Assembly (NCBI RefSeq): GCF_001484605.1
Contig: NZ_CP013747.1
Location: forward strand, 2,294,001 to 2,358,000
From: Pseudarthrobacter sulfonivorans
Lineage (GTDB): Bacteria; Actinomycetota; Actinomycetes; Actinomycetales; Micrococcaceae
DNA length: 64,000 nt
Reading direction: 5' to 3'
A model generated the notes under the pieces. It saw only the letters and a list, made by a program, of their open reading frames with translations. It was not told where the DNA came from and searched no databases. This document shows positions 9,292 through 24,596 of this stretch, in pieces (position 1 is the stretch's first letter; each line of letters opens with the position of its first letter). The position numbers and the translations under genes were made by a program.

Positions 9292-9819
9292 GGAAGGGTG
9301 CCGCCTTTCATTGCTGCTGCCTTGTCTGAACCGGAAACTCCCACAGGGAGCCCAAAAGTAGTGGCGCCCCAACAACGGAACCTGCATGGTTCATCGAGTG
9401 CTGAACCACAAAGAAACCCGAGGATGGGAGCGCTGCTGACAGCTTAGCCGCAAGACTGCTGATTAACCCATCCCCGGTCAGGACGCCTGGGGTCCGGAGG
9501 CCCTTGGGCCTGGGCCGGTTCGGGGTGCGGATCGAGATTGTTATTTGAGGGAAATCAATTTCTTGGGATTAGTAGTGTTAATAACTGCTGTGGATACTGT
9601 GGATAACTCGATCCGGCCGCAGGATCCAGCGGTTAAGCCCTGTTCATGGATTGTGGGTGACGCAGGTTTTAAACAGGCTGTGGATGGGGATAACAATTTT
9701 TGGGTTTTCGCTGATCCACAGGCGGCTTAAGGGTTTTAAGCCCATTAAGCTCGGTTGTCCCCTTAAGTATCCACAGGGTTATCCACATGCACCTGTTAAT
9801 AAGGTATAGAGGCGACGGC
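9292..9819. other. oriC: chromosomal replication origin (oriC) between dnaA and dnaN
   Basis: This 528-bp gap holds a cluster of DnaA boxes. Perfect matches to TTATCCACA or its complement are at 9598-9606 and 9779-9787. Near matches are at 9589-9597 (TGTGGATAC), 9679-9687 (TGTGGATGG), 9712-9720 (TGATCCACA) and 9767-9775 (GTATCCACA). The last two sites on the dnaA side start exactly 12 bp apart. A stretch with many T and A bases (about 9541-9585 and 9691-9710) is a candidate unwinding element. Gene context and boxes together make this the origin. The end next to dnaN also carries the dnaN promoter and leader. Confidence 0.93.
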
Positions 9820-11241
9820 TCAGGAGTTGCGCTGCTGCTGCTTGATCCTGTTGGTGAGTTCGGTGACCTGGTTGTAGATCACACGACGCTCAGCCATCAG
9901 CTCACGGATTTTGCGGTCCGCGTGGATCACCGTGGTGTGGTCGCGGCCGCCGAGTTCCTGGCCGATCTTCGGCAGGGACATGTCCGTGAGCTCGCGGCAG
10001 AGGTACATGGCGATCTGCCGGGCGGTCACCAGCGTGCGGGTCCGGGACTTGCTGCAGAGTTCCTCCATGGTGAGCTTGAAGTACTCCGCCGTCTGGATCA
10101 GGATCTGGCTCGACGTGATTTCCTGGGCGCCGTCGTCCGTGATGAGGTCCTTCAGGACCATCTCAGCCAACGCAACATCGACCGGCTGGCGGTTCAGGCT
10201 GGCGAATGCCGTCACCCGGATCAGTGCGCCTTCGAGTTCGCGGATATTGCTGGAGATCTTGGAAGCGATGTATTCCAGGGCATCGTCCGGGGCGGAGAGG
10301 CCTTCGCTGAGGGCCTTCTTCCGCAGGATGGCGATGCGAGTCTCGAGCTCGGGCGGCTGGATATCGGTGAGGAGGCCCCACTCGAAGCGGGACTTCATCC
10401 GGTCCTCAAAACCTGCCAGCTGCTTGGGCGGCAGATCCGAGGTGATGACCACCTGTTTGTTGTTGTTGTGCAGGGAGTTGAACGTGTGGAAGAACTCCTC
10501 CAGCGTCCGGTCCTTGCCGGCCAGGAACTGGATGTCATCGATCAGCAGCACGTCCACGTTGCGGTACGTGGTCTTGAAGCTGGCGCCTTCGTCATCGCGG
10601 ATGGAGTTGATGAAGTCGTTGGTGAACTCTTCGGAGTTCACGTACCGGACCCGGATTCCGCTGTACAGACGGCGGGCATAGTGGCCGATCGCGTGCAGGA
10701 GGTGGGTCTTGCCCAGCCCGGAATCACCGTAGATGAACAGCGGGTTGTAGGCCTTGGCGGGCGCTTCGGCCACGGCCACGGCAGCTGCATGGGCAAAGCG
10801 GTTGGACGAACCGATCACAAAGGTATCGAAGACGTACTTGGGGTTCAGCCGGCCGAACTCGTGGGAAGTGCTCGGCAGCATCGGCTGCGGCTTCTGTTCG
10901 ATCAGCTGGTCCGGCGAGTAGGAAGGTTCGACGACGGGTTCCGGCTCCGTGTGGAGCGGCACCAGATCGGTGTCCACGTCGATCGCGCAGCGGATGTCCT
11001 CGGAGAAAACGTTATGCAGGGCGTCATCCAGGGCGTCCTTGACCTGGGTCTGAAGGACTTCACGGGTCAGTTCGTTCGGAACGGCCACCAGGAGGGTGGA
11101 TCCGATCAGGCCCTGGGCCTGCGCCAGGATGACAAAGCCCCGCTGCCGTGGAGATACGCGGTCGTCCTGCTCGAGCAGGCTCACAACCCGACGCCAGGAA
11201 CTTCCGACAGTATTGGCGTGGTTGGCTTCGTCTACTGTCAT
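9820..11241 (-). CDS. dnaA: chromosomal replication initiator protein DnaA
   Basis: DnaA binds 9-bp boxes, oligomerises with ATP and opens oriC. The 473-residue protein shows domain I at the N-terminus, a variable linker at about residues 95-130, the AAA+ domain with Walker A (GDSGLGKTH, residues 172-180) and Walker B (LLIDDIQFL), and the C-terminal box-binding helix-turn-helix ([15 protein letters not shown]). The in-frame TTG one codon upstream was rejected: the ATG at 11241 has GAGGA eight bases before it. The gene diverges from rpmH and runs toward oriC, so its promoter region at 11242-11710 contains its own candidate binding sites. Confidence 0.98.
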
Positions 11242-11710
11242 CAATCAGTTCCTCAAAACTTGCGTACCTGCATTACGTGCAGCCCCAAGTCCCGAACCAG
11301 GATGCTGGTTCAGCTTCATCCACAGGGTTATGCACAGTCCGTGGATAATCGGCTACTGAGCCACTCTAGGGGAACAAAAGGCCAGAAGATAGCTGGGAAG
11401 TAGCTTGTGGATAATTACACCGTTGTGGTTCGAAAACAGGCCTTGTGAGCCACTTCATCCACAGGCTGTGGGGCCAGGTTAACCACAGCCGGGGACAGGG
11501 ACGCAGGGGTACCCCGGTTTGACTCTGGCAGGCATTTTGCCCTAACGTTGTGAAGTCCTTTGTGTACGCTTTTTAGCCCCTTCTGAATCTCTCTGACGCA
11601 CCGCGTTGGAGCAGCCGGGGGAAGCGTGCATATACAAAACTTAGCGTCGGCCAGTTCTTCCCCTTTTACTGATCGGGTGGGCGCACCTTTGATCCACTGG
11701 AGTAACTAAC
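11242..11710. promoter_or_regulatory. dnaA/rpmH divergent control region with DnaA boxes
   Basis: This 469-bp gap separates the divergent dnaA and rpmH genes. DnaA-box-like 9-mers are at 11316-11324 (TCATCCACA), 11328-11336 (TTATGCACA), 11340-11348 (CGTGGATAA), 11406-11414 (TGTGGATAA, perfect) and 11455-11463 (TCATCCACA). The first three start exactly 12 bp apart. Such boxes fit autoregulation of dnaA or an accessory part of the origin. No gene was found here. Confidence 0.8.
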
Positions 11711-15008: not shown

Positions 15009-16082
15009 GTGACCAGTAGCGAAGCCTCCACACAACGGATACCCCCGTTTGTGTCTTTGGGGTCAGCACGATCAGTTGCTGGCATGGGCATGGGTTCCGC
15101 GCCCGGACGAGGGGAAAGTCACCCTAATCCGGTTGCGGAAATGGCAATTCTTGCCTCTGTTTCACGTGAAACAACAACGGGTGGCAGGATCAACGTCATG
15201 GACACCATGGACGATTCCAGTCCTATCGCCCGGGAACTCGCGCACGAGACCAGGCGCCGCGAACGGCTGGTTGGCCGGAAACTTCCCAAGCCGGAGAAGA
15301 CCCGTATCTTCACGGTGTCCAACCAAAAAGGCGGCGTGGGCAAGACCACCACCACCGTGAACATCGCTGCTGCCCTGGCCGCAGCCGGCCTGAACGTCCT
15401 GGTCATTGACATCGATCCCCAGGGCAACGCCTCCACCGCCCTCGGCGTCGAGCACCATGCCGATGTGGACAGCATCTACGACGTCCTCATCAACGATTTC
15501 CCTCTTGCTGACGTCGTGGCCCCCTGCCCGGACATCAGCAACCTGATCTGTGCTCCTGCCACCATTCACCTGGCGGGCGCGGAGATTGAGCTTGTTTCGC
15601 TTGTGGCCCGTGAACAGCGGCTCCGCCGGGCGATCGATGTCTATGCCAAGACCCGGGCAAAGAACGGCGAAGAACGCCTCGATTACATCTTCATTGACTG
15701 CCCGCCCAGCCTCGGGTTGCTCACGGTTAATGCCTTCTGTGCTGCCGGTGAGGTCCTTATCCCCATCCAGTGTGAGTACTATGCACTGGAAGGCCTCAGT
15801 CAGCTCCTCAAGAACATTGAGATGATCCAGAAGCACCTGAATGAGGATCTGGTGGTCTCCACTATTCTCCTCACGATGTATGACGGACGGACCAATCTTG
15901 CAGCCCAGGTGGCAGCGGAAGTTCGCCTCCACTTCCCCGAGCAGGTCCTTGGTGCTGTAGTCCCCCGCTCCGTGCGGATTTCAGAAGCTCCGAGCTACCA
16001 GCAAACCGTCATGACGTACGATCCTTCCTCCAGTGGAGCCCTGTCTTACCTGGAAGCCGCAGCCGAAATCGCTGAACGCTAG
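15009..16082 (+). CDS. parA: chromosome partitioning ATPase ParA
   Basis: ParA is a deviant Walker ATPase that moves ParB-parS complexes apart. The motif KGGVGKTTTTVNIAAAL falls at residues 107-123 of the longest reading, followed by the Walker A' region VIDIDPQGNASTALG and the Walker B region FIDCPPSLGLLT. The start is uncertain. GTG 15009 gives 357 residues and has only a weak GAGAG upstream. ATG 15198 (MDTMDDSSPIAREL, residue 64) has AGGA eight bases before it and would give 294 residues. A parS site lies between the two starts and, in this frame, encodes VSRET. I recall the same VSRET in annotated Streptomyces ParA N-termini, so the longer reading is kept. Confidence 0.95.
   Translation: MTSSEASTQRIPPFVSLGSARSVAGMGMGSAPGRGESHPNPVAEMAILASVSRETTTGGRINVMDTMDDSSPIARELAHETRRRERLVGRKLPKPEKTRIFTVSNQKGGVGKTTTTVNIAAALAAAGLNVLVIDIDPQGNASTALGVEHHADVDSIYDVLINDFPLADVVAPCPDISNLICAPATIHLAGAEIELVSLVAREQRLRRAIDVYAKTRAKNGEERLDYIFIDCPPSLGLLTVNAFCAAGEVLIPIQCEYYALEGLSQLLKNIEMIQKHLNEDLVVSTILLTMYDGRTNLAAQVAAEVRLHFPEQVLGAVVPRSVRISEAPSYQQTVMTYDPSSSGALSYLEAAAEIAER
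15158..15173. other. parS: parS site (in the 5' part of parA)
   Basis: The sequence TGTTTCACGTGAAACA is a perfect 16-bp match to the bacterial parS consensus bound by ParB. It lies inside the longest parA reading frame but upstream of the alternative start at 15198. Confidence 0.95.
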
Positions 16083-16148: not shown

Positions 16149-17456
16149 ATGAGCGAAAAGCGACGTGGCCTAGGCCGCGGTCTTGGCGCACTCATTCCAA
16201 GTTCCGCCGGTAGTGCATCGGGCAACGGCGGCGCTGTGTCGCGGCCTGTGGATCTCTTCTTCCCTGAAGGCCGTAAGAAAGTCGCGTCCCCTGACGACGC
16301 TTCAGGGAATGGTGGGGCAGCTTCAGATGCTTCATCTTCCGAGTCGGTTGCTTCCGAGTCGGTTGCGCCGGCTCAGGCCAACGACGCTTCGGTAACGAAG
16401 GAAGCAGCCGCGCCGAGAACGGCCTCCCCTGCGAATCCGCCGGCCAAGGCAGCAGACAAGCTGCCGGCCGCAAAAGCTCCCGCCAAGGCTCCTGCGAAAG
16501 CTCCTGTAAAGGGCGGTGCAGCTACATCGACGGTGGACGGTTCGCCCACGCCAGGTGAAGACGCGACTAGCGAGTCTGTGTCCGAGGCGCCTGAATCCCA
16601 GAGCAGCATGCCGGATAACGGTGTTGACCTCGTGGAAGTCCCGGGCGTGCGTTTTGCCGAGATTCCGGTCACCGACATCCATCCGAACCGTAAGCAGCCC
16701 CGCTCAGTCTTCGATGACGATGACATGGCGGAGCTCATCCACTCCGTCCGCGAAATCGGCGTCCTCCAGCCAATTGTGGTTCGTACTTCAACCGAAGAAG
16801 GTGGAGAACCGTATGAGCTGGTGATGGGTGAGCGTCGCTGGAGGGCAGTACAGGCGGCCGGGATGGCGACCATCCCTGCCATCGTCCGGGACACTACTGA
16901 TGATGACCTCCTCAGGGATGCACTGCTGGAGAACCTGCATCGCAGCCAGTTGAACCCGCTCGAAGAGGCAGCGGCCTACCAGCAGCTGCTTGAAGACTTC
17001 GGAACCACTCACGAGCAACTTGCGGACCGCATTGGCCGTTCACGTCCGCAGGTTTCGAACACGCTGCGTCTCCTCAAACTTCCGCCCCTGGTTCAGCGTC
17101 GTGTGGCGGCCAGCGTTATTTCCGCTGGCCACGCGCGCGCGCTGCTCGCCCTGCCGGATGCGGCAGCCATGGAACGCCTCGCCCAGAAGATCGTGGCTGA
17201 AGGCATGTCTGTTCGGGCAACCGAAGAGGCCGTCACTCTCTATCAGGATCCTGCGAAGCCTGCCAAGAACAACATCCCTCGTCCGGGAGCCCGCCATGAG
17301 CGCCTGGACTATCTGGCATCCTCGTTGTCAGACCGTTTAGACACCAACGTCAAGATTTCCCTGGGTGTCCGCAAGGGGCGTGTCAGCATTGAATTCGCCA
17401 GTGTTGAAGACCTGAACCGCATCATGGAAGTTCTTGCGCCAGGATCTGAGAACTAG
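16149..17456 (+). CDS. parB: chromosome partitioning protein ParB
   Basis: ParB binds parS, spreads along DNA as a CTP-dependent clamp and recruits SMC. The 435-residue protein has an unusually long, Ala/Ser/Pro-rich N-terminal arm (residues 20-155, with [13 protein letters not shown] repeats). The clamp domain follows ([32 protein letters not shown] is the CTP-contacting box), then the helix-turn-helix ([20 protein letters not shown] near residues 290-310), and a C-terminal dimerisation region. The start ATG 16149 has GGAGG 10 bp upstream. It lies 66 bp after parA and ends just before a parS-containing palindrome. Confidence 0.97.
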
Positions 17457-17473
17457 CGTTCTCTGTTCAAAGA

Positions 17474-17503
17474 AAGGGCCTGTTTCACGTGAAACAGGCC
17501 CTT
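17474..17503 (+). terminator. parB terminator palindrome containing a parS site
   Basis: A perfect 30-bp palindrome with 15-bp arms (AAGGGCCTGTTTCAC and its complement) begins 18 bp after the parB stop and is followed by CTTT. Its central 16 bp, 17481-17496, is an exact parS. As RNA it would form a strong hairpin able to end parAB transcription; as DNA it is a ParB site. Confidence 0.85.
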
Positions 17504-18216
17504 CTTTCGTCTGTATCGACGCCATCTTTGCACTCCGGAGCTAATACTGGCGTGGACATCGTTGTTGTGACGCGCCCCGGGATCGAGCCCGCGGTTCGCG
17601 TGGCGTACCATTCTGGGCCCGGTGGAATAGTTCCGTTGTGGACGCGAGTTTGGCACTGTCTGCTGCCTTGGACTCCCTTAAAGACTGGACTCCTCTAACG
17701 ACTGGCGTCTCTGCTTGTGTCCCCGCGGCAGCGGTGGACTTCTGTGGCTTCGGGTTTGCTGACGCACTGGAGGTGGGCACTGAGAGCGATGGGGATGGCG
17801 GTGCCGCGAACTCTCGAGACGGCGATCAGGCAGGAGTGGAGGATTCGACGGATCGCTGGACACCTCGATGCGACTCGTGATGTTGCGCACCCAATGGGTT
17901 CCATTGCTCCGAAGTAGTGAAGATTGCGTCGATTCGCATAATTTCCAATCAGTCGGTGCTGTGCTCATCCTGCCAAGCGGCGGGAACACCGTGTTCGATG
18001 CTCTTGCCCCGGTCTGTGCCAGGGAGCTGGTGCGCAGCGCACGTACGCGTGCAGGTGCTGGTCTCAGCCTGCGGCTGGCTCGTTGACTACGGGGATGCGC
18101 CAGGGTGGACGTCTCCCCCGGAGCTGTCGCCAGATAGTATTCTGACCTTCAATCTGGTTCGGCAACATCCGGGTTCGGCAACGTCTGGTTCAGATGGGAA
18201 GTCGCCTCGCGGTTGC

Positions 18217-18232
18217 TGTTTCACGTGAAACA
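18217..18232. other. parS: parS site
   Basis: Perfect 16-bp TGTTTCACGTGAAACA, in the gene-poor region downstream of parB. Confidence 0.93.
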
Positions 18233-18505
18233 TCAACAGGGTAGGTGCCGGATGTAGGCGACTGTGCCATCGAGAACAAACATGAAGTTGGTATGGTCTA
18301 AAGCTCTCGGCGCGTGATGTCGCCAGCGCGCCACCTGATCTGCGGCTGCGGCTGCGGTGAAGTGAATTCGGTTTGCAGCATCCGGGGGGCTTCGTCCGCA
18401 GCCAAAGCCGGGCAGAACCACTCCAACAGAAGCAGGTCATCAAGCTTCGTGAGGATAGCCGGGATTGCTGAGCAAACGCGGCCTGCGCCCAGTCGTTCTC
18501 CAAAT

Positions 18506-18521
18506 GGTTTCACGTGAAACA
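18506..18521. other. parS: parS site (one outer mismatch)
   Basis: GGTTTCACGTGAAACA; the 14-bp core GTTTCACGTGAAAC is intact and only the first outer base differs from the consensus. Confidence 0.9.
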
Positions 18522-19074
18522 TCGTGACGAGTCCAGCGCACTGTGCCCGGCATCTCTCCATGGCCCCGACACCCGACGCCCTCACGGCGTCGGCAAGCGG
18601 GCTGCGACGCAGATTGTAAACATGCAGCCCAGGCGCCCTCCCATCTCGATCGCCGTGGGAACAGAGACAATTCACAGACCTTGGGAGTTGACGGCATAGA
18701 GCCTACGATGTCCTCTTCACGCCTTGAGGATGATGCCGCCCCCAATCCCCCGCCGGCAGTGACGGCCCGCGACTGGCGACAACATGCTGACCCAGCGCAT
18801 GCCCGCCTATGTCTCGGGGACCTTGGCAAACCGTCCGGAGGGTTCGTATCCAGTGGAGAGCCATGGCATGAGTCAAGCTTATCCGTCCGCCGTGGCCCAA
18901 CCCTGACGCCTGAGTTCCATCCGCCGGGCCGTTAGCCTGAACGGATAGCTTCCTGGCACATCCGAGGACCCTTGAGCTGGCAGCCAGTGTCGATGCCCGA
19001 GACCGAGGCACCTCAGAATGATCGGGCTAGGGTCGGGCTGCTGGCCGCACGCCGGCGCATAGGTAGCATCGGCT

Positions 19075-19114
<40 letters not shown>

Positions 19115-19192
19115 TACGACCTCGCCCCCGGGGCCTTTCGTCAAACAGTCTTCTGTGGAGATGGGAAGTCGACGGAATCGAATCTGCAGGGT

Positions 19193-19308
19193 GCCTCGAT
19201 ACACACGAGTCTCAGGAGGGCGCCTTGATACATACGAGTCTCAGGAGGGCGCCTTGATACATACGAGTCTCAGGAGGGCGCCTTGATACATACGAGTCTC
19301 AGGAGGGC
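19193..19308. repeat. four tandem copies of a 29-bp repeat
   Basis: Units start at 19193, 19222, 19251 and 19280, with a broken fifth start at 19309. The unit begins GCCTTGATACATACGAGTCT and ends CAGGAGGGC. Copies two to four are identical; the first differs at two positions (GCCTCGATACACA). There is no spacer between units, so it is not a CRISPR. Function unknown. Confidence 0.95.
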
Positions 19309-19812
19309 GCCTCGATCCCCTGGCTTGGCCAATAGGGTCGCCAACTGCCGCATCCGGAACCACCATTGGGCAGGGACTGCGACACTCCAAGACGTCACAG
19401 CATGTCGCTGAGTAGCTCGCCATAGTGCGTCCCTGGACCAGCTCCGTGACTTGGCTTCGCCCCTCTAGGACGTGACCGCGGGATGCACAGAATAGGCCCA
19501 GTCTTGGAGTGTCCGGGAGGACAAGGAATTGGTCGAAGCCGAGTCCTCTTGCTGTGCAGCAGATCGAGACAGACCGGACTGTTCGGAAAGGTTCGGAGCC
19601 GATCGGGAAGCGACCACACGTGCAACCACGTCTGATCATGGCCCGGCGGAAGGTGAATCAGCTTGCCAGGCGGACGGCAGCCTGGTTTACGGGAAAGAGA
19701 ATGCCCGAAAGATTATGATTCCTCGGCCCACTCTTCATCATCGTGTGCGGCAAACTTGCCACAACAACAGATGGAACCAAGACAGCCTTGGGCCCATAGG
19801 TGTGAACTGCCC

Positions 19813-19857
19813 GGTGGATATCGCGGTGGATATCGCTGTGGATAACTTTGTGGATAG
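19813..19857 (+). repeat. array of four DnaA-box-like 9-mers at 12-bp pitch (array 1)
   Basis: GGTGGATAT at 19813, GGTGGATAT at 19825, TGTGGATAA at 19837 and TGTGGATAG at 19849 are all in the same orientation and start exactly 12 bp apart. The third is a perfect DnaA box (complement of TTATCCACA); the others differ by one or two end bases. The same 3-bp spacing between boxes occurs in oriC and upstream of dnaA. I infer DnaA binding. Confidence 0.8.
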
Positions 19858-19952
19858 ATTGCTTGGTGGCAGGCATCACGAAGAGATTTGGCCCACACCA
19901 GCGGATCCTGCAACGCGCGGTCCGCACGAGCATTGCTTAGCGTCTGCAGTCC

Positions 19953-19968
19953 CGTTTCACGTGAAACA
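19953..19968. other. parS: parS site (one outer mismatch)
   Basis: CGTTTCACGTGAAACA with an intact 14-bp core. It is 95 bp after DnaA-box array 1. Confidence 0.9.
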
Positions 19969-20159
19969 TTACCAAGGCCGATCCTGACTCTCTTTTGGGA
20001 CGGAAAGCGACTTCAATAGTTGGATTTCCGGCGATATTTCCAGTCCTACGTGAGCATGCGCTTCGTCCGTGGTAGTTGTCCTGGGAGCAACGCCGGCTTG
20101 AGGGTATCGGCTGATCTAAAGAACGGCACTAGGGGTACTGCATCCACGATTTGCAGGCC

Positions 20160-20205
20160 GGTGGATAAGCCTGTGGATATCGGTGTGGATAACATTTGGG
20201 GATAA
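20160..20205 (+). repeat. array of DnaA-box-like 9-mers at 12-bp pitch (array 2)
   Basis: GGTGGATAA at 20160, TGTGGATAT at 20172 and TGTGGATAA at 20184 start exactly 12 bp apart; a fourth, degenerate TGGGGATAA begins at 20197. The third unit is a perfect DnaA box. Orientation and spacing match array 1, which begins 347 bp upstream, with a parS between them. Confidence 0.8.
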
Positions 20206-20526
20206 CTTCGAAGTCGGTGGACATCAACGCGATGGAACCCTCCAGTCGAACCGAACAGTCACACTTCGGATGGATACGATTCCGTCATCCGCTGACATTT
20301 GTCACCTGCTCTAGGTCTTTGGGGTGGAGTTGGTCGGGCACCTAGGGCGCCGCCGTTCGAACAGGAAAGTCGGCATTGGCCAGCTGATTCATGACCTGGC
20401 CTAGCAGGCGTTCGCGGCCGGTGCCTGGTGCCTTGCTCAGACGAGCATCCTATCGGCACATGCGGAGGCGTGTCGCTCCGGTCGGGATCTGCAGTGCGGA
20501 CTGACATGTTGACGACCGAGCAGGCG

Positions 20527-20581
20527 GCTCTGGTACCGTCCTTGGCTGATGATCGAGCAAGGGTGCTCTGGTACCGTCCTT
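20527..20581. repeat. 17-bp direct repeat pair
   Basis: GCTCTGGTACCGTCCTT occurs at 20527-20543 and again at 20565-20581, with start points 38 bp apart, in the gene-poor region. No function is evident. Confidence 0.8.
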
Positions 20582-21023
20582 CGCCGACTGGACGGCAGCC
20601 GTAGCGATCTTGCCAACAGAGATGTGCGTGGCGGCGAAGCCACGGGTCCTAGTTGGGCCACGGGCAGATACACGGAGATCACCTTCCTCCAGTCCAGGGT
20701 CAGGCTGTCGATCCCCCACTGGCGCAGTAGACAGCAGGGCTTGGGCGAGGGCTCAACCGTCACGCAAGCGTGCATAGGGCCCTGTGGCAAGATTGGGGCT
20801 TGGCAGTGCAGAGAATACCTGCGGTGAGGAGAATATGCCTCGTGTGCCTGGGCTGTGTACGGGTGGTCCGGGTGTGTACGTATTGTCGGTCGTGGCGCAA
20901 CGAGCTTGACGTGGGGTTGCGGCCATCTCGCAGTTGGCCTCAGGGGATAGCATCCAGTACATGCGAAGCCGGCGTCCTTAGCATCCCATTCCGGGAAGGC
21001 TTGGACGGAGTTTTCGGTCAGTT

Positions 21024-21039
21024 CGTTTCACGTGAAACA
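21024..21039. other. parS: parS site (one outer mismatch)
   Basis: CGTTTCACGTGAAACA, intact 14-bp core, 63 bp from the next site. Confidence 0.9.
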
Positions 21040-21086
21040 GTACGCTCGAGCTCTTGCCATCCACGAAGCCGTCGCCGGGGACGGAC

Positions 21087-21102
21087 TGTTTCACGTGAAA
21101 CA
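21087..21102. other. parS: parS site
   Basis: Perfect TGTTTCACGTGAAACA, closely paired with the site at 21024. Confidence 0.93.
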
Positions 21103-22288
21103 ATCCGGCCCGGAATAAGATCCGTGTCCTCGTGCCGTCTTTGCCGGCCCGGCCCATGGCGCCCAGGAGGTCTCCTGGTATGGCCCGTCTCCTGGTATGG
21201 CCCCGCTGAGACGAGCACGGCGTTGTCAAGGGATGAGGCCGCAACAGGTGTGTGTCGAGACCGTCGTTGGGTGCGGTCGGGGCCAATATCGGGCCTGGAC
21301 AATCTCCGCATGTGCTTCGTCTTCGGGCCATCGGCATCAATGGACACCTCGCACAATACGACGATGATCCCGAATGGACCCACCAGCGGCGAGCACAGGC
21401 CGAATGCGCGACGCGGGGCCTCTCCGTGCGGTTCCCGAATCACCATCCGAGGCTGGAGGTATCGGCGGACGGGCTTTGTGAGTCTCCAGGCCCACGGTCC
21501 CGAATTCGTCCGCAGGCAACTTGTCGGTGCTGGCGGGTCCCAGCGCTGTGTGAGTGTGCTCCCGGGGGCCGCTGAAATCTTGAGTTGCCCGCTGCCGTGT
21601 CGTCGACATGCGGTGGACAAGACTGAACTGTGGCAACTGGTCAGGCTGCCACTGAACTGGATACCGTCGTGGCAGATTACCGACATGCTGCGGTTTGGCG
21701 ATGAGGCTTGGGCGCATTTCTGACCTAGCAGTCATTTACGAGGGGCCAGAGCGATTTGCTGTCGGGGATCTATTCCAATTGCTCGGATCCTAGCGTTATA
21801 TCAGTCACCTGGCGTCGCCGGCGTTCCTTGGATTCCTCCGACCAGCGCCGTCTCTCCCGACGCACGCCGTCTCCCCCGACCACCGGCGTTGACTCTGACC
21901 AACCCTTGGAACCCCGATCTTCTAAGGCGTCACCCGATCTTCTAGGCGTCAACTGGGAGAATCGGAGTTTGATTCAGACCATGGACGCCCAGCGAGACTG
22001 GAACGCTGGCCTGGTCAGGGTGCTTACGGTAGTCCGATGCTCCGGTTCCATGTTGTCCCCCGCGAGGTGAAAAGGGGCGTGAAGGCCACTAAGCCACCTA
22101 ATCCAATTGGCATTCGCTGCTCAGAGTTCGATCCAATGTCTGAGTGCGCCGCGGCTATTCTCCTCAGGGAATGGACGGGACGCATTACGTGCTTCATCGC
22201 GTGAACCCGATCCATGAGGCCTGGCTCGAGTTGCCGTCGGGCAGGCCAGTACGAGCTGGAGGGAGCAGACTCATGCAGGCTTGGGCAG

Positions 22289-22304
22289 TGTTTCACGTGA
22301 AACA
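22289..22304. other. parS: parS site
   Basis: Perfect TGTTTCACGTGAAACA. Confidence 0.93.
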
Positions 22305-22542
22305 AAGCGCGGGGTACGCATCAGTGCGCAGAGTATGATCGTCGCGAAAGTGGGATCCTGGGTTGATTGCTTACCGTCGTGAGTCGAACTGAATTCAAGT
22401 ATGTCGAACTGAATCGCTGCGGCATTGTCGTGCGGCAAGGGCACTCGGATGTAAGGATCAGCATGCACCGACGCCGAAGAAGTTTTTGCCCGTCCGGCGA
22501 GCGTGGCCACGCCGTACGCGGCTTGGCTTGACGAATCGTCGA

Positions 22543-22558
22543 TGTTTCACGTGAGTCC
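22543..22558. other. degenerate parS (half site)
   Basis: TGTTTCACGTGAGTCC keeps the left half and centre but has lost the right arm. It lies 34 bp before an intact site, so it may be a decayed duplicate. ParB affinity is doubtful. Confidence 0.6.
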
Positions 22559-22576
22559 ATGTCTCTCGAGCGCCAA

Positions 22577-22592
22577 TGTTTCACGTGAAACA
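22577..22592. other. parS: parS site
   Basis: Perfect TGTTTCACGTGAAACA. The preceding CGCCAA is shared with the site at 22810, suggesting that the two arose by duplication. Confidence 0.93.
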
Positions 22593-22809
22593 GAGCACTC
22601 GGGTTCGCGTAGGCGGGCATTAGAAGTCCCGTAGCGAGCTGGAATCTGGAAACACCTTGTCTACTGTCGGCGAACCTATGCCTTCTTGCCGCGGCCCGGC
22701 GGCCGAAGCCAACGAAGACCGTACATCCTGCGAAGTGTCTCGCATTGTCGTACGCTTTCCCTCACGGGCGCGAGGCCAGACGTACGAGGCTCTGCATCTC
22801 GATCGCCAA

Positions 22810-22825
22810 TGTTTCACGTGAAACA
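22810..22825. other. parS: parS site
   Basis: Perfect TGTTTCACGTGAAACA, the last site before trxA. Confidence 0.93.
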
Positions 22826-23103
22826 AGAATCCGAATCCGGAAAGGCGAACTCCAGGATGGCGGCGGGGACGTCTGACTGGAATTTGCAGCCCACTAGCCC
22901 TCATAGGTAAGACCCTCAATCCCTGCACTGGGTCTCCAGAAGCGACTCTGAGCAATCACTGAAGTTAAGAAACAAATGAAGGTTGATGCAATGTGCTTGT
23001 GCGTCGACGGGCTCGGTCTTAAAGACGCGTGGCCACCGCTTCATGGAAGCAGTGGCCACAGGCCGGTGTCACTGGTCATATGGGACAGAAGTCCCCTACC
23101 TGA

Positions 23104-23430
23104 TTAGGACAGGACGTCCGCAAATTCCTTTTCGAAGAACTGCTTCGGCCTTGCGCCGATAACAGTGCTCTTCACCTGGCCGTCCTGGAAGAGGTAAACG
23201 GCGGGGATGGACGTGATTCCGTACTCGGCGGCGATGGCGGGGTTGTCGTCGACGTTGAGCTTGACGACATTAACTTTCTCGCTGTATTCCACCGAGATCT
23301 CGTCGAGGATGGGTCCCAGCTTGCGGCAGGGGCCGCACCATTCAGCCCAGAAGTCCACAATTACCGGCTTGTCGGCGGACAGTACGTCCGCAGCAAAACT
23401 TGCATCTGTTACGTCTTTAGCGTTGCTCAT
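23104..23430 (-). CDS. trxA: thioredoxin
   Basis: This small redox protein reduces disulfides of cytoplasmic proteins. Its active site reads WAEWCGPCRKLGP near residue 30, and the cis-Pro loop is GITSIPAVYLF. The open frame extends to 23568, but the ATG at 23430 (MSNAKDVTDASFAADVLS) gives 108 residues, the normal thioredoxin length; it has AGAGAGA-type purine bases upstream. It lies 37 bp downstream of trxB on the same strand, so both are probably transcribed from the promoter upstream of trxB. Confidence 0.96.
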   Translation of the reverse strand: MSNAKDVTDASFAADVLSADKPVIVDFWAEWCGPCRKLGPILDEISVEYSEKVNVVKLNVDDNPAIAAEYGITSIPAVYLFQDGQVKSTVIGARPKQFFEKEFADVLS

Positions 23431-23467
23431 AACCTTGTCTCTCTCTTCGAACGGCGGGTACGCGAGA

Positions 23468-24424
23468 TTACGCGTGAAGGTCTGCGAGGTAGTGTTCCAC
23501 GTCGATCGCGGCAACACATCCGGAACCGGAGGCCGTGATTGCCTGACGGTAGGTGGGATCAACGACATCGCCGGCGGCGAAGACGCCAGGGATGCTGGTC
23601 TTGGAACTCCGGCCCTCGACGGCGATGGTACCGGCCGCCGTCATCTCCAGGGAGTCCTTGACCAGGTCGGTGCGGGGGTCGTTTCCGATGGCGACGAAGA
23701 CGCCGGTGACGGCGAGGTCGGACACGGTGCCGTCCTGCAGGTTCTTGATCTTGAGCCCGGTGACTTTGTCCGCTCCGATGACGTCGTCAACGGAACTGTT
23801 CCAGATGAACGAAATCTTGTCGTGGGCCAGGGCACGGTCCGCCATGATCTTGGAAGCTTTGAGTGTGTCGCGGCGGTGCACAACGGTGACGGACTTGGCG
23901 AACTTGGTCAGGAAGAGGGCTTCTTCCATGGCCGAGTCTCCTCCGCCGATGACCGCAATGTCCTGGTCCTTGAAAAAGAAACCATCGCAGGTTGCACACC
24001 AGCTGACGCCGTGGCCGGAGAGGCGCTTTTCGTTCGGGAGGCCCAGCTCACGGTAAGCGGATCCGGTGGACAGGATGATCGCCCGCGCACGGAAGGTCTC
24101 GCCGGTACCGATGGTGACAGTCTTAATGTCGCCGTCGAGGTCCAGTGCTGTGACGTCCTCGAACTGGATTTCCGTTCCGAACCGGGCTGCCTGCTTCTCG
24201 AAGTTCTCCATGAGGTCCGGCCCCATGATCCCTTCGGGGAAGCCAGGGTAGTTTTCGACGTCGGTGGTGTTCATCAGTTCGCCGCCGGCGGTAACTGATC
24301 CGGCCAGAAGCAAGGGCTTCAGGTTGGCGCGCGCCGTGTAGACAGCGGCCGTGTACCCGGCCGGGCCCGAGCCGACGATGATGACATCACGTACTTCGGA
24401 CGCGGTGTTTTCTGCGTTGCTCAC
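23468..24424 (-). CDS. trxB: thioredoxin reductase
   Basis: This FAD- and NADPH-dependent enzyme reduces thioredoxin. The protein shows an N-terminal FAD motif (GSGPAGYTAAVYTARA), the redox-active CATC (SWCATCDGFFFKDQD near residue 145), the NADPH motif GGGDSAMEEA, and the C-terminal FAD motif GVFAAGDVVDPTYRQA. The frame is open to 24556, but the family start is GTG 24424 (VSNAENTASEVRDVIIVG), giving 318 residues with AGAGG 12 bases upstream. It heads the trxB-trxA unit. Confidence 0.96.
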   Translation of the reverse strand: MSNAENTASEVRDVIIVGSGPAGYTAAVYTARANLKPLLLAGSVTAGGELMNTTDVENYPGFPEGIMGPDLMENFEKQAARFGTEIQFEDVTALDLDGDIKTVTIGTGETFRARAIILSTGSAYRELGLPNEKRLSGHGVSWCATCDGFFFKDQDIAVIGGGDSAMEEALFLTKFAKSVTVVHRRDTLKASKIMADRALAHDKISFIWNSSVDDVIGADKVTGLKIKNLQDGTVSDLAVTGVFVAIGNDPRTDLVKDSLEMTAAGTIAVEGRSSKTSIPGVFAAGDVVDPTYRQAITASGSGCVAAIDVEHYLADLHA

Positions 24425-24483
24425 TGAACGGTGAACCTCTTCCTTAGTCGATGCGCCGGCTTTTGCGGCCGGCCACATGGCAC

Positions 24484-24509
24484 AACTGAATCTAGGTGGT
24501 GAATATTCC
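24484..24509 (-). promoter_or_regulatory. SigR/SigH-type promoter of trxB-trxA
   Basis: On the minus strand GGAAT (24509-24505) is followed by exactly 18 bases and then GTT (24486-24484), 60 bp before the trxB start. GGAAT-N18-GTT is the established promoter consensus of the thiol-stress ECF sigma factor SigR of Streptomyces (SigH in mycobacteria), whose regulon includes trxBA. Oxidative induction is therefore likely here. Confidence 0.85.
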
Positions 24510-24596
24510 GGGCGCCGCGCGAACGGAGGAACCATCAGCGGCCATAACCCCGTCACGTGGACGGGACGCCCTACCAGATTACCGTCTGAAAACAGC

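Follow-up and report, generated by a model that had tools for sequence, protein, structure and literature searches.

What would two short rows of DnaA-box-like 9-mers do in the centromere zone of a bacterial chromosome, close to the origin but outside it? The question is raised by the window, a stretch of 64,000 nucleotides from Pseudarthrobacter sulfonivorans that was analyzed as a whole and in which two such rows lie between parB and trxA.

Genomic setting

The window corresponds to the origin region of an Arthrobacter-type actinobacterium, with genes in the order gyrA, gyrB, a DciA-family gene, recF, gnd, dnaN, oriC, dnaA, oriC, yidC, jag, rsmG, parA, parB, a gap, trxA and trxB (recF, gnd, jag and rsmG are named by domain and place). 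The dnaA gene (9820..11244, minus strand; Pfam Bac_DnaA and Bac_DnaA_C) encodes a DNA-binding domain matched almost end to end (positions 3-69 of 69 in Pfam). On one side of it, the dnaN-dnaA interval (9387..9820) carries six boxes within one mismatch and one 12-bp pair (9767/9779); on the other, the interval between dnaA and rpmH, the latter named by place, carries six more (11244..11700). Downstream of parA/soj (15009..16082, plus strand; Pfam AAA_31) and parB (16149..17456, plus strand; Pfam ParB_N, HTH_ParB and ParB_C) comes a 5.6-kb gap with no recognized gene (17457..23103), bordered on the right by trxA (23104..23568, minus strand; Pfam Thioredoxin), after which lies trxB (23468-24556, minus strand; Pfam Pyr_redox_2).

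Nine parS sites start inside the gap, at 17481, 18217, 18506, 19953, 21024, 21087, 22289, 22577 and 22810, which bears out the initial annotation in placing the rows of boxes inside a parS zone. A perfect parS, the tenth in the region, sits inside parA (15158-15173). The gap also holds tandem repeats, a 29-bp unit present 4.4 times (19188-19316) and AGGC present 9.8 times (19076-19114). An RNA element was considered and rejected, as the window has no Rfam match at gathering thresholds.

Two phased arrays of putative DnaA boxes

Array 1 comprises four boxes on the plus strand: GGTGGATAT at 19813..19821; GGTGGATAT again at 19825..19833, a recurrent variant adjoining the perfect box; the perfect box TGTGGATAA at 19837..19845; and TGTGGATAG at 19849..19857. 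The perfect box, used as the anchor, is near-invariant in a logo centered on the best box, partly by construction. Array 2 reads, on the same strand, GGTGGATAA at 20160..20168, TGTGGATAT at 20172..20180, the perfect TGTGGATAA at 20184..20192 and TGGGGATAA at 20197..20205. Altogether, eight putative DnaA boxes on the plus strand fall within 393 bp. The claims of one perfect box per array (starting at 19837 and 20184) and of a parS between the arrays (CGTTTCACGTGAAACA, 19953..19968, one mismatch to the 16-mer) were correct, and the stated 10 kb from oriC agrees with the distance of about 8-10 kb to the two oriC intergenic regions. The claim of an exact 12-bp pitch in one orientation holds for seven boxes but not for the last box of array 2: the steps are 12, 12 and 12 bp in array 1, and 12, 12 and 13 bp in array 2.

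The box rules (one or two mismatches) were set in this analysis, and controls were handled identically. Within one mismatch of TTATCCACA, the window holds 28 sites, oriC included, compared with 4.9 expected from shuffles. The gap contains five 12-bp box pairs, all on the plus strand, and on the minus strand the rule used finds no boxes at all; 2000 dinucleotide shuffles of the gap yielded no such pair. Searched across the whole genome, the pattern KGTGGATANNNNKGTGGATA occurs five times at the arrays, once at oriC and nowhere else. Ten of the 42 perfect boxes of the genome lie within 27 kb around oriC, a stretch picked after viewing the list.

Occurrence in relatives

Arrays were sought genome-wide in the window's own genome and, in relatives, in detail in the parB-trxA gap. 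The same-genus sample comprised 80 genomes of 149 with a parB match (150 searched), namely G001-G084 minus G048, G053, G073 and G081, where parB was partial or at a contig end; the family sample comprised 40 genomes outside the genus, from 195 with a parB match (197 searched). A set of 80 named loci overlaps the genome set (L011 and L162, for example, are one strain), and the two sets are not independent; nor are the counts within them, since the genomes are related. Among same-genus genomes the gap is long (about 4-9 kb) and shows rapid sequence turnover, with several parS kept.

Persistence of the 12-bp pitch in the gaps of relatives had been set beforehand as a test, and the pitch is kept: the 80 same-genus gaps contain 262 box pairs 12 bp apart in the same orientation and 0 in opposite orientation. 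Under a looser rule, two same-orientation arrays 250-520 bp apart are present in 78 of the 80 genomes. The two exceptions are L100, which meets a contig end, and L162, a strain identical to L011, in which the arrays lie about 1.9 kb apart. The DNA parting them in L162 bears an ORF with an integrase core domain and amounts to a natural test of spacing. A stricter rule finds at least one 12-bp pair in 76 of 80, the misses including L118 and L133 (stretch too short, later extended) and L127 (weaker boxes).

Outside the genus, two arrays occur in nine of ten genomes of genus g7, which stands beside Sinomonas on the ParB tree, and in all three of genus g19, but in none of 27 genomes of other family genera, for which seven stretches ended before trx and three gaps were shorter than 500 bp. 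Among the named loci, 24 of 80 have two arrays and 25 at least one; the other 55 have none, five of their stretches ending before trx and twelve of their gaps being shorter than 500 bp. Since some stretches ended early and some gaps were this short, each count of absence applies to the stretch seen. Reverse-complemented and reversed controls gave no two-array match throughout.

The 25 named carriers, set apart by outcome, belong to Arthrobacter, Pseudarthrobacter and Paenarthrobacter, with 71-94% best-segment ParB identity, and include one Sinomonas at 63%; A. koreensis, A. gandavensis, A. pullicola and further named Arthrobacter have no arrays in the gap. G032 and G047, whose parB-trxB distances reach 13.6 and 16.8 kb, keep both arrays and the inner parS near the trx side. 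On the ParB tree, which was built quickly from 98 rows and has long branches, the presence of at least one array requires three changes, a distribution compatible with one gain followed by losses. A genome-wide search for 12-bp pairs in 36 family genomes gave hits in 11 of them; seven fall in genera without arrays, five of them 5-8 kb upstream of parB, on the oriC side, one 2.2 Mb away and one unplaced. Given their absence from all 27 other-genus gaps and from 55 of the 80 named loci, the arrays answer no general need.

Spacing and register are kept where sequence is lost

Distances such as that from array 1 to the inner parS were measured with boxes sought near expected places, which biases their SDs low and is why we added a count free of any distance limit, with a strict array defined as two or more boxes exactly 12 bp apart. 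By this definition, 59 of the 80 gaps hold two arrays, ten hold three, nine hold one and two hold none. The 79 neighboring pairs of strict arrays lie, start to start, within 60 bp in ten cases (sub-arrays), at 61-249 bp in none, at 250-450 bp in 68 and farther apart in one, the L162 insertion.

The boxes downstream also keep register with array 1: for 258 boxes of 73 genomes the resultant is 0.61, and 5000 random registers give 0.29 at most. Measured from the array 1 anchor, the boxes of array 2 fall near 320, 332, 344-345 and 356-357 bp, then at about 367, 380 and 391 bp. The spacer (19858..20159 in the window) keeps its length and register but not its sequence: spacer identity is 49.7% over 150 random pairs, near the 47.7% of shuffles, and spacers do not align in a MAFFT alignment of the whole element. 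L100 and L162 were omitted beforehand from the lattice and spacer comparisons, as were L094, L096, L117 and L135, which the rule did not pair. When 57 sequences, the window included, were aligned on the inner parS without gaps, the box and parS columns stood out, and outside -160..+20 and +200..+290 the mean was 0.06 bits. The most widely shared words in the gaps of 77 relatives (415 kb; L100, L118 and L133 left out) derive from parS and the DnaA box, and nothing comparable was found among other motifs in these gaps or in the parS-anchored alignment. The word GCGGTGGCC is present in 36 of the 77 gaps.

As distance and register hold while the spacer is near random, length and register, rather than sequence, appear to be under selection. 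The parS zone of Arthrobacter-type Micrococcaceae and of two related genera thus carries a conserved pair of head-to-tail arrays of putative DnaA boxes that point from parB to trxA, with a 12-bp pitch and about 345 bp apart, each made of a strong box and weaker neighbors. The comparison supports the action of selection on these arrays.

Are the boxes DnaA sites?

The identification of the 9-mers as DnaA boxes gains support from oriC of the same genome, which has the same 9-mer and a 12-bp pair. Across genomes, the commonest box of the arrays (128 of 381) is also the commonest at oriC (126 of 508). We infer from these likenesses that DnaA binds the arrays. A strong box flanked by weaker ones is also what would be expected of an oligomer seeded at the strong box. 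In a passage on Thermotoga, ATP-DnaA is described as pairing most readily where direct boxes have 2 bp between them (PMC10316083), whereas the gap between array boxes here is 3 bp.

The boxes might instead be bound by another protein, or form a fast-evolving tandem repeat without function. The neighbor boxes are often GGTGGATAT, which makes up 45 of the 381 array boxes and is outside the 14 commonest variants of the 508 oriC boxes (56 genomes), and further tandem repeats exist in the gap. We nevertheless regard either possibility as very improbable, given the commonest box that arrays and oriC share and, against a functionless repeat, a register that survives although the DNA around it is scrambled, something for which neutral drift does not account.

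Relation of the arrays to parS

With up to one mismatch allowed in the 14-mer core, 65 of the 78 same-genus genomes with two arrays have a parS between the two. Twelve of the other 13 have a parS 43-88 bp upstream and one has none within 200 bp, and no parS lies between the arrays in any of the nine Sinomonas-like (g7) genomes with two arrays. The box lattice is alike in 61 genomes with an inner parS and in the 13 with an intact parS upstream or missing, L150 being counted in the latter group though it keeps a decayed parS inside. The inner parS is therefore not a defining part of the element. Its reading as a fixed part of the core was ruled out by the genomes that have parS elsewhere with array spacing unchanged.

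A parS inside or within 200 bp of the arrays is found in 77 of 78 same-genus genomes, compared with 62.6 expected from parS density, in 3/3 genomes of g19 (2.3 expected) and in five of nine Sinomonas-like genomes (7.2 expected). From array 1 to the inner parS the median distance is 116 bp with an SD of 6.4 (56 genomes), a value biased low because the search for boxes covered 40-200 bp upstream and resolved ties towards 117; in the same number of genomes, the SD is 384 bp from one parS to the next and 604 bp from the end of parB to the inner parS. The tie to one particular parS is loose, and the arrays sit in a parS-rich gap in all carriers seen. In L150, the upstream parS coexists with the decayed one (two mismatches in the 16-mer), 132 bp after the start of array 1, perhaps a transition state.

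A second cluster on the gyrA side

A further cluster, of 15 DnaA-like boxes (G000:C1:2287083-2288207; L207:7084-8208), lies about 15-17 kb from oriC in the direction of gyrA, about 5.8-6.9 kb left of the first base of the window; the genes around it encode a methyladenine glycosylase, a CMD-family protein and a rhomboid protein. A box cluster was present at about the same distance in all 16 same-genus genomes checked, with 5-16 boxes, and no parS within one core mismatch occurs in these cluster stretches. Inverted box pairs are frequent: over 17 stretches, the clusters with at least four boxes contain 27 pairs whose starts are 11 bp apart and 8 pairs whose starts are 10 bp apart, an arrangement that, as far as the pattern of boxes goes, is reminiscent of DARS. 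Three other-genus genomes gave clusters of 8 and 3 boxes, clusters of 5 and 4 boxes, and only 3 boxes, respectively; G209, an other-genus genome with gyrA-side clusters, lacks the arrays. With arrays and gyrA-side cluster both conserved, oriC is flanked by two clusters of different build. On the other side, about 14 kb beyond the right end of the window and about 67-69 kb from oriC, three perfect DnaA boxes lie within 460 bp (G000:C1:2372386-2372843).

A proposed DnaA platform beside oriC

We favor the reading that the core of the element is a bipartite platform for DnaA oligomers, most likely a datA-like site of DnaA sequestration or inactivation beside oriC; to this reading we give an even chance. 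Of the roles that the initial annotation suggested, DnaA titration and a meeting of DnaA and ParB/Soj signals are both plausible. DnaA, probably in its ATP form, would start from the perfect box of each array and assemble there into a short oligomer; the pair of oligomers would bridge or otherwise require a fixed length of DNA. As the element adjoins oriC, it doubles soon after initiation, and the sink would then draw DnaA off the new origins and prevent re-initiation. The centromere location may add a link to ParA/ParB, which the basic function would not need. Against a sink, plain titration would not require fixed spacing, and the gyrA-side cluster could act as the sink instead of the arrays.

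The main rival is a direct coupling to ParABS, which comes next in our ranking as a possible but rather doubtful reading. Array-bound DnaA would signal to the ParB-parS complex, or ParA/Soj would signal to DnaA at this place, which would hold segregation back until DnaA activity is right. The parallel is Caulobacter, where DnaA binds at parS and enables parS movement according to passages of two papers (PMC6399470, PMC4468827). The placement of the arrays among many parS in all carriers, the same-genus excess of nearby parS and the tight distance from array 1 to the inner parS (even if its SD is biased low) agree with such a coupling. They have to be set against the 12 genomes with the near parS upstream and the one with none within 200 bp, all with unchanged spacing, against the Sinomonas-like genus, where nearby parS fall below expectation, and against several genomes that retain several parS without arrays; the location of the arrays may also be mere inheritance. 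A more elaborate picture, which we consider unlikely, has two ATP-DnaA filaments at a fixed lattice distance looping within the centromere, measuring length and reporting the state of the initiator to ParABS/SMC; together with the gyrA-side cluster, they could form a push-pull pair flanking oriC, inactivating DnaA on one side and reactivating it on the other.

Roadblocks to ParB are the general background of another possibility, that DnaA oligomers flanking parS form a barrier or boundary limiting ParB clamp sliding or SMC movement. The inner parS of most same-genus genomes would suit such a barrier, but 13 of these 78 and the nine Sinomonas-like genomes have no inner parS, and the eight other parS of the window's gap lack such flanking, which leaves the barrier improbable. 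As for the second unwinding site that had been suggested, the phased boxes do resemble oriC, but nowhere does the element reach, over 50 bp, the AT-richness of the richest such stretch at oriC: AT content per 50 bp is 36-54% in the window's element and 37-51% in the mean of 56 genomes, compared with up to 68% at oriC, and the spacer sequence is not conserved. We reject a second origin or duplex-opening site, the least probable of all readings, since the element has no AT-rich stretch comparable to that of oriC. A DARS-like role, also suggested initially, does not fit either: all eight boxes lie on one strand, whereas DARS requires a head-to-head pair.

Comparison with known systems

The E. coli oriC lies near 84 min. 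The element resembles E. coli datA as a noncoding DnaA-box cluster outside oriC in which spacing matters; datA, as described in part of one paper, requires an IHF site along with spaced DnaA boxes and lies at 94.7 min (PMC10380432), whereas the arrays here are direct and 8-10 kb from oriC. DARS1 and DARS2 of E. coli are likewise noncoding DnaA-box clusters, but a passage of the same paper has DARS requiring head-to-head DnaA boxes I and II (PMC10380432), of which the arrays have none.

Closer in setting are the DnaA-box clusters near oriC of Bacillus subtilis and Streptomyces coelicolor, which repress untimely initiation and are likened to datA in passages of two papers (PMC10950094, PMC4585315). 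One passage of a review reports early initiation upon deletion of all six B. subtilis clusters, and another passage of the same review states that no cluster with a significant role has been identified in B. subtilis (PMC5295017). The likeness, as far as these passages describe the clusters, is that of non-origin DnaA boxes close to oriC in Gram-positives including an actinobacterium, and several boxes outside oriC but close by are also what is found here (8 boxes in 393 bp, 8-10 kb away). The difference is in the build: the present element consists of two phased head-to-tail arrays, set a fixed distance apart within the parS zone.

Caulobacter likewise has DnaA sites and parS together near the origin, and the putative boxes described here do fall within a parS region; here, however, they form two multi-box arrays whose inner parS is dispensable in evolution. 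At V. cholerae rctA/parS2, to which RctB binds, a parS is embedded among initiator sites, as one passage has it (PMC6399470), but the initiator is RctB, not DnaA, and the chromosome is the secondary one. We found no description of a paired-array element in the literature searched on DnaA boxes and parS in Arthrobacter and Micrococcaceae, which was judged in part by title.

The element offers small, sharp targets: two arrays, each about 45 bp long, and between them a spacer of about 300 bp that is free in sequence and fixed in length. Variants exist in nature among Arthrobacter-type soil bacteria: the parS may sit inside, sit upstream or be absent, and in one strain an insertion parts the arrays. 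The finding bears on how actinobacteria limit initiation, and on whether DnaA talks to the centromere outside Caulobacter.
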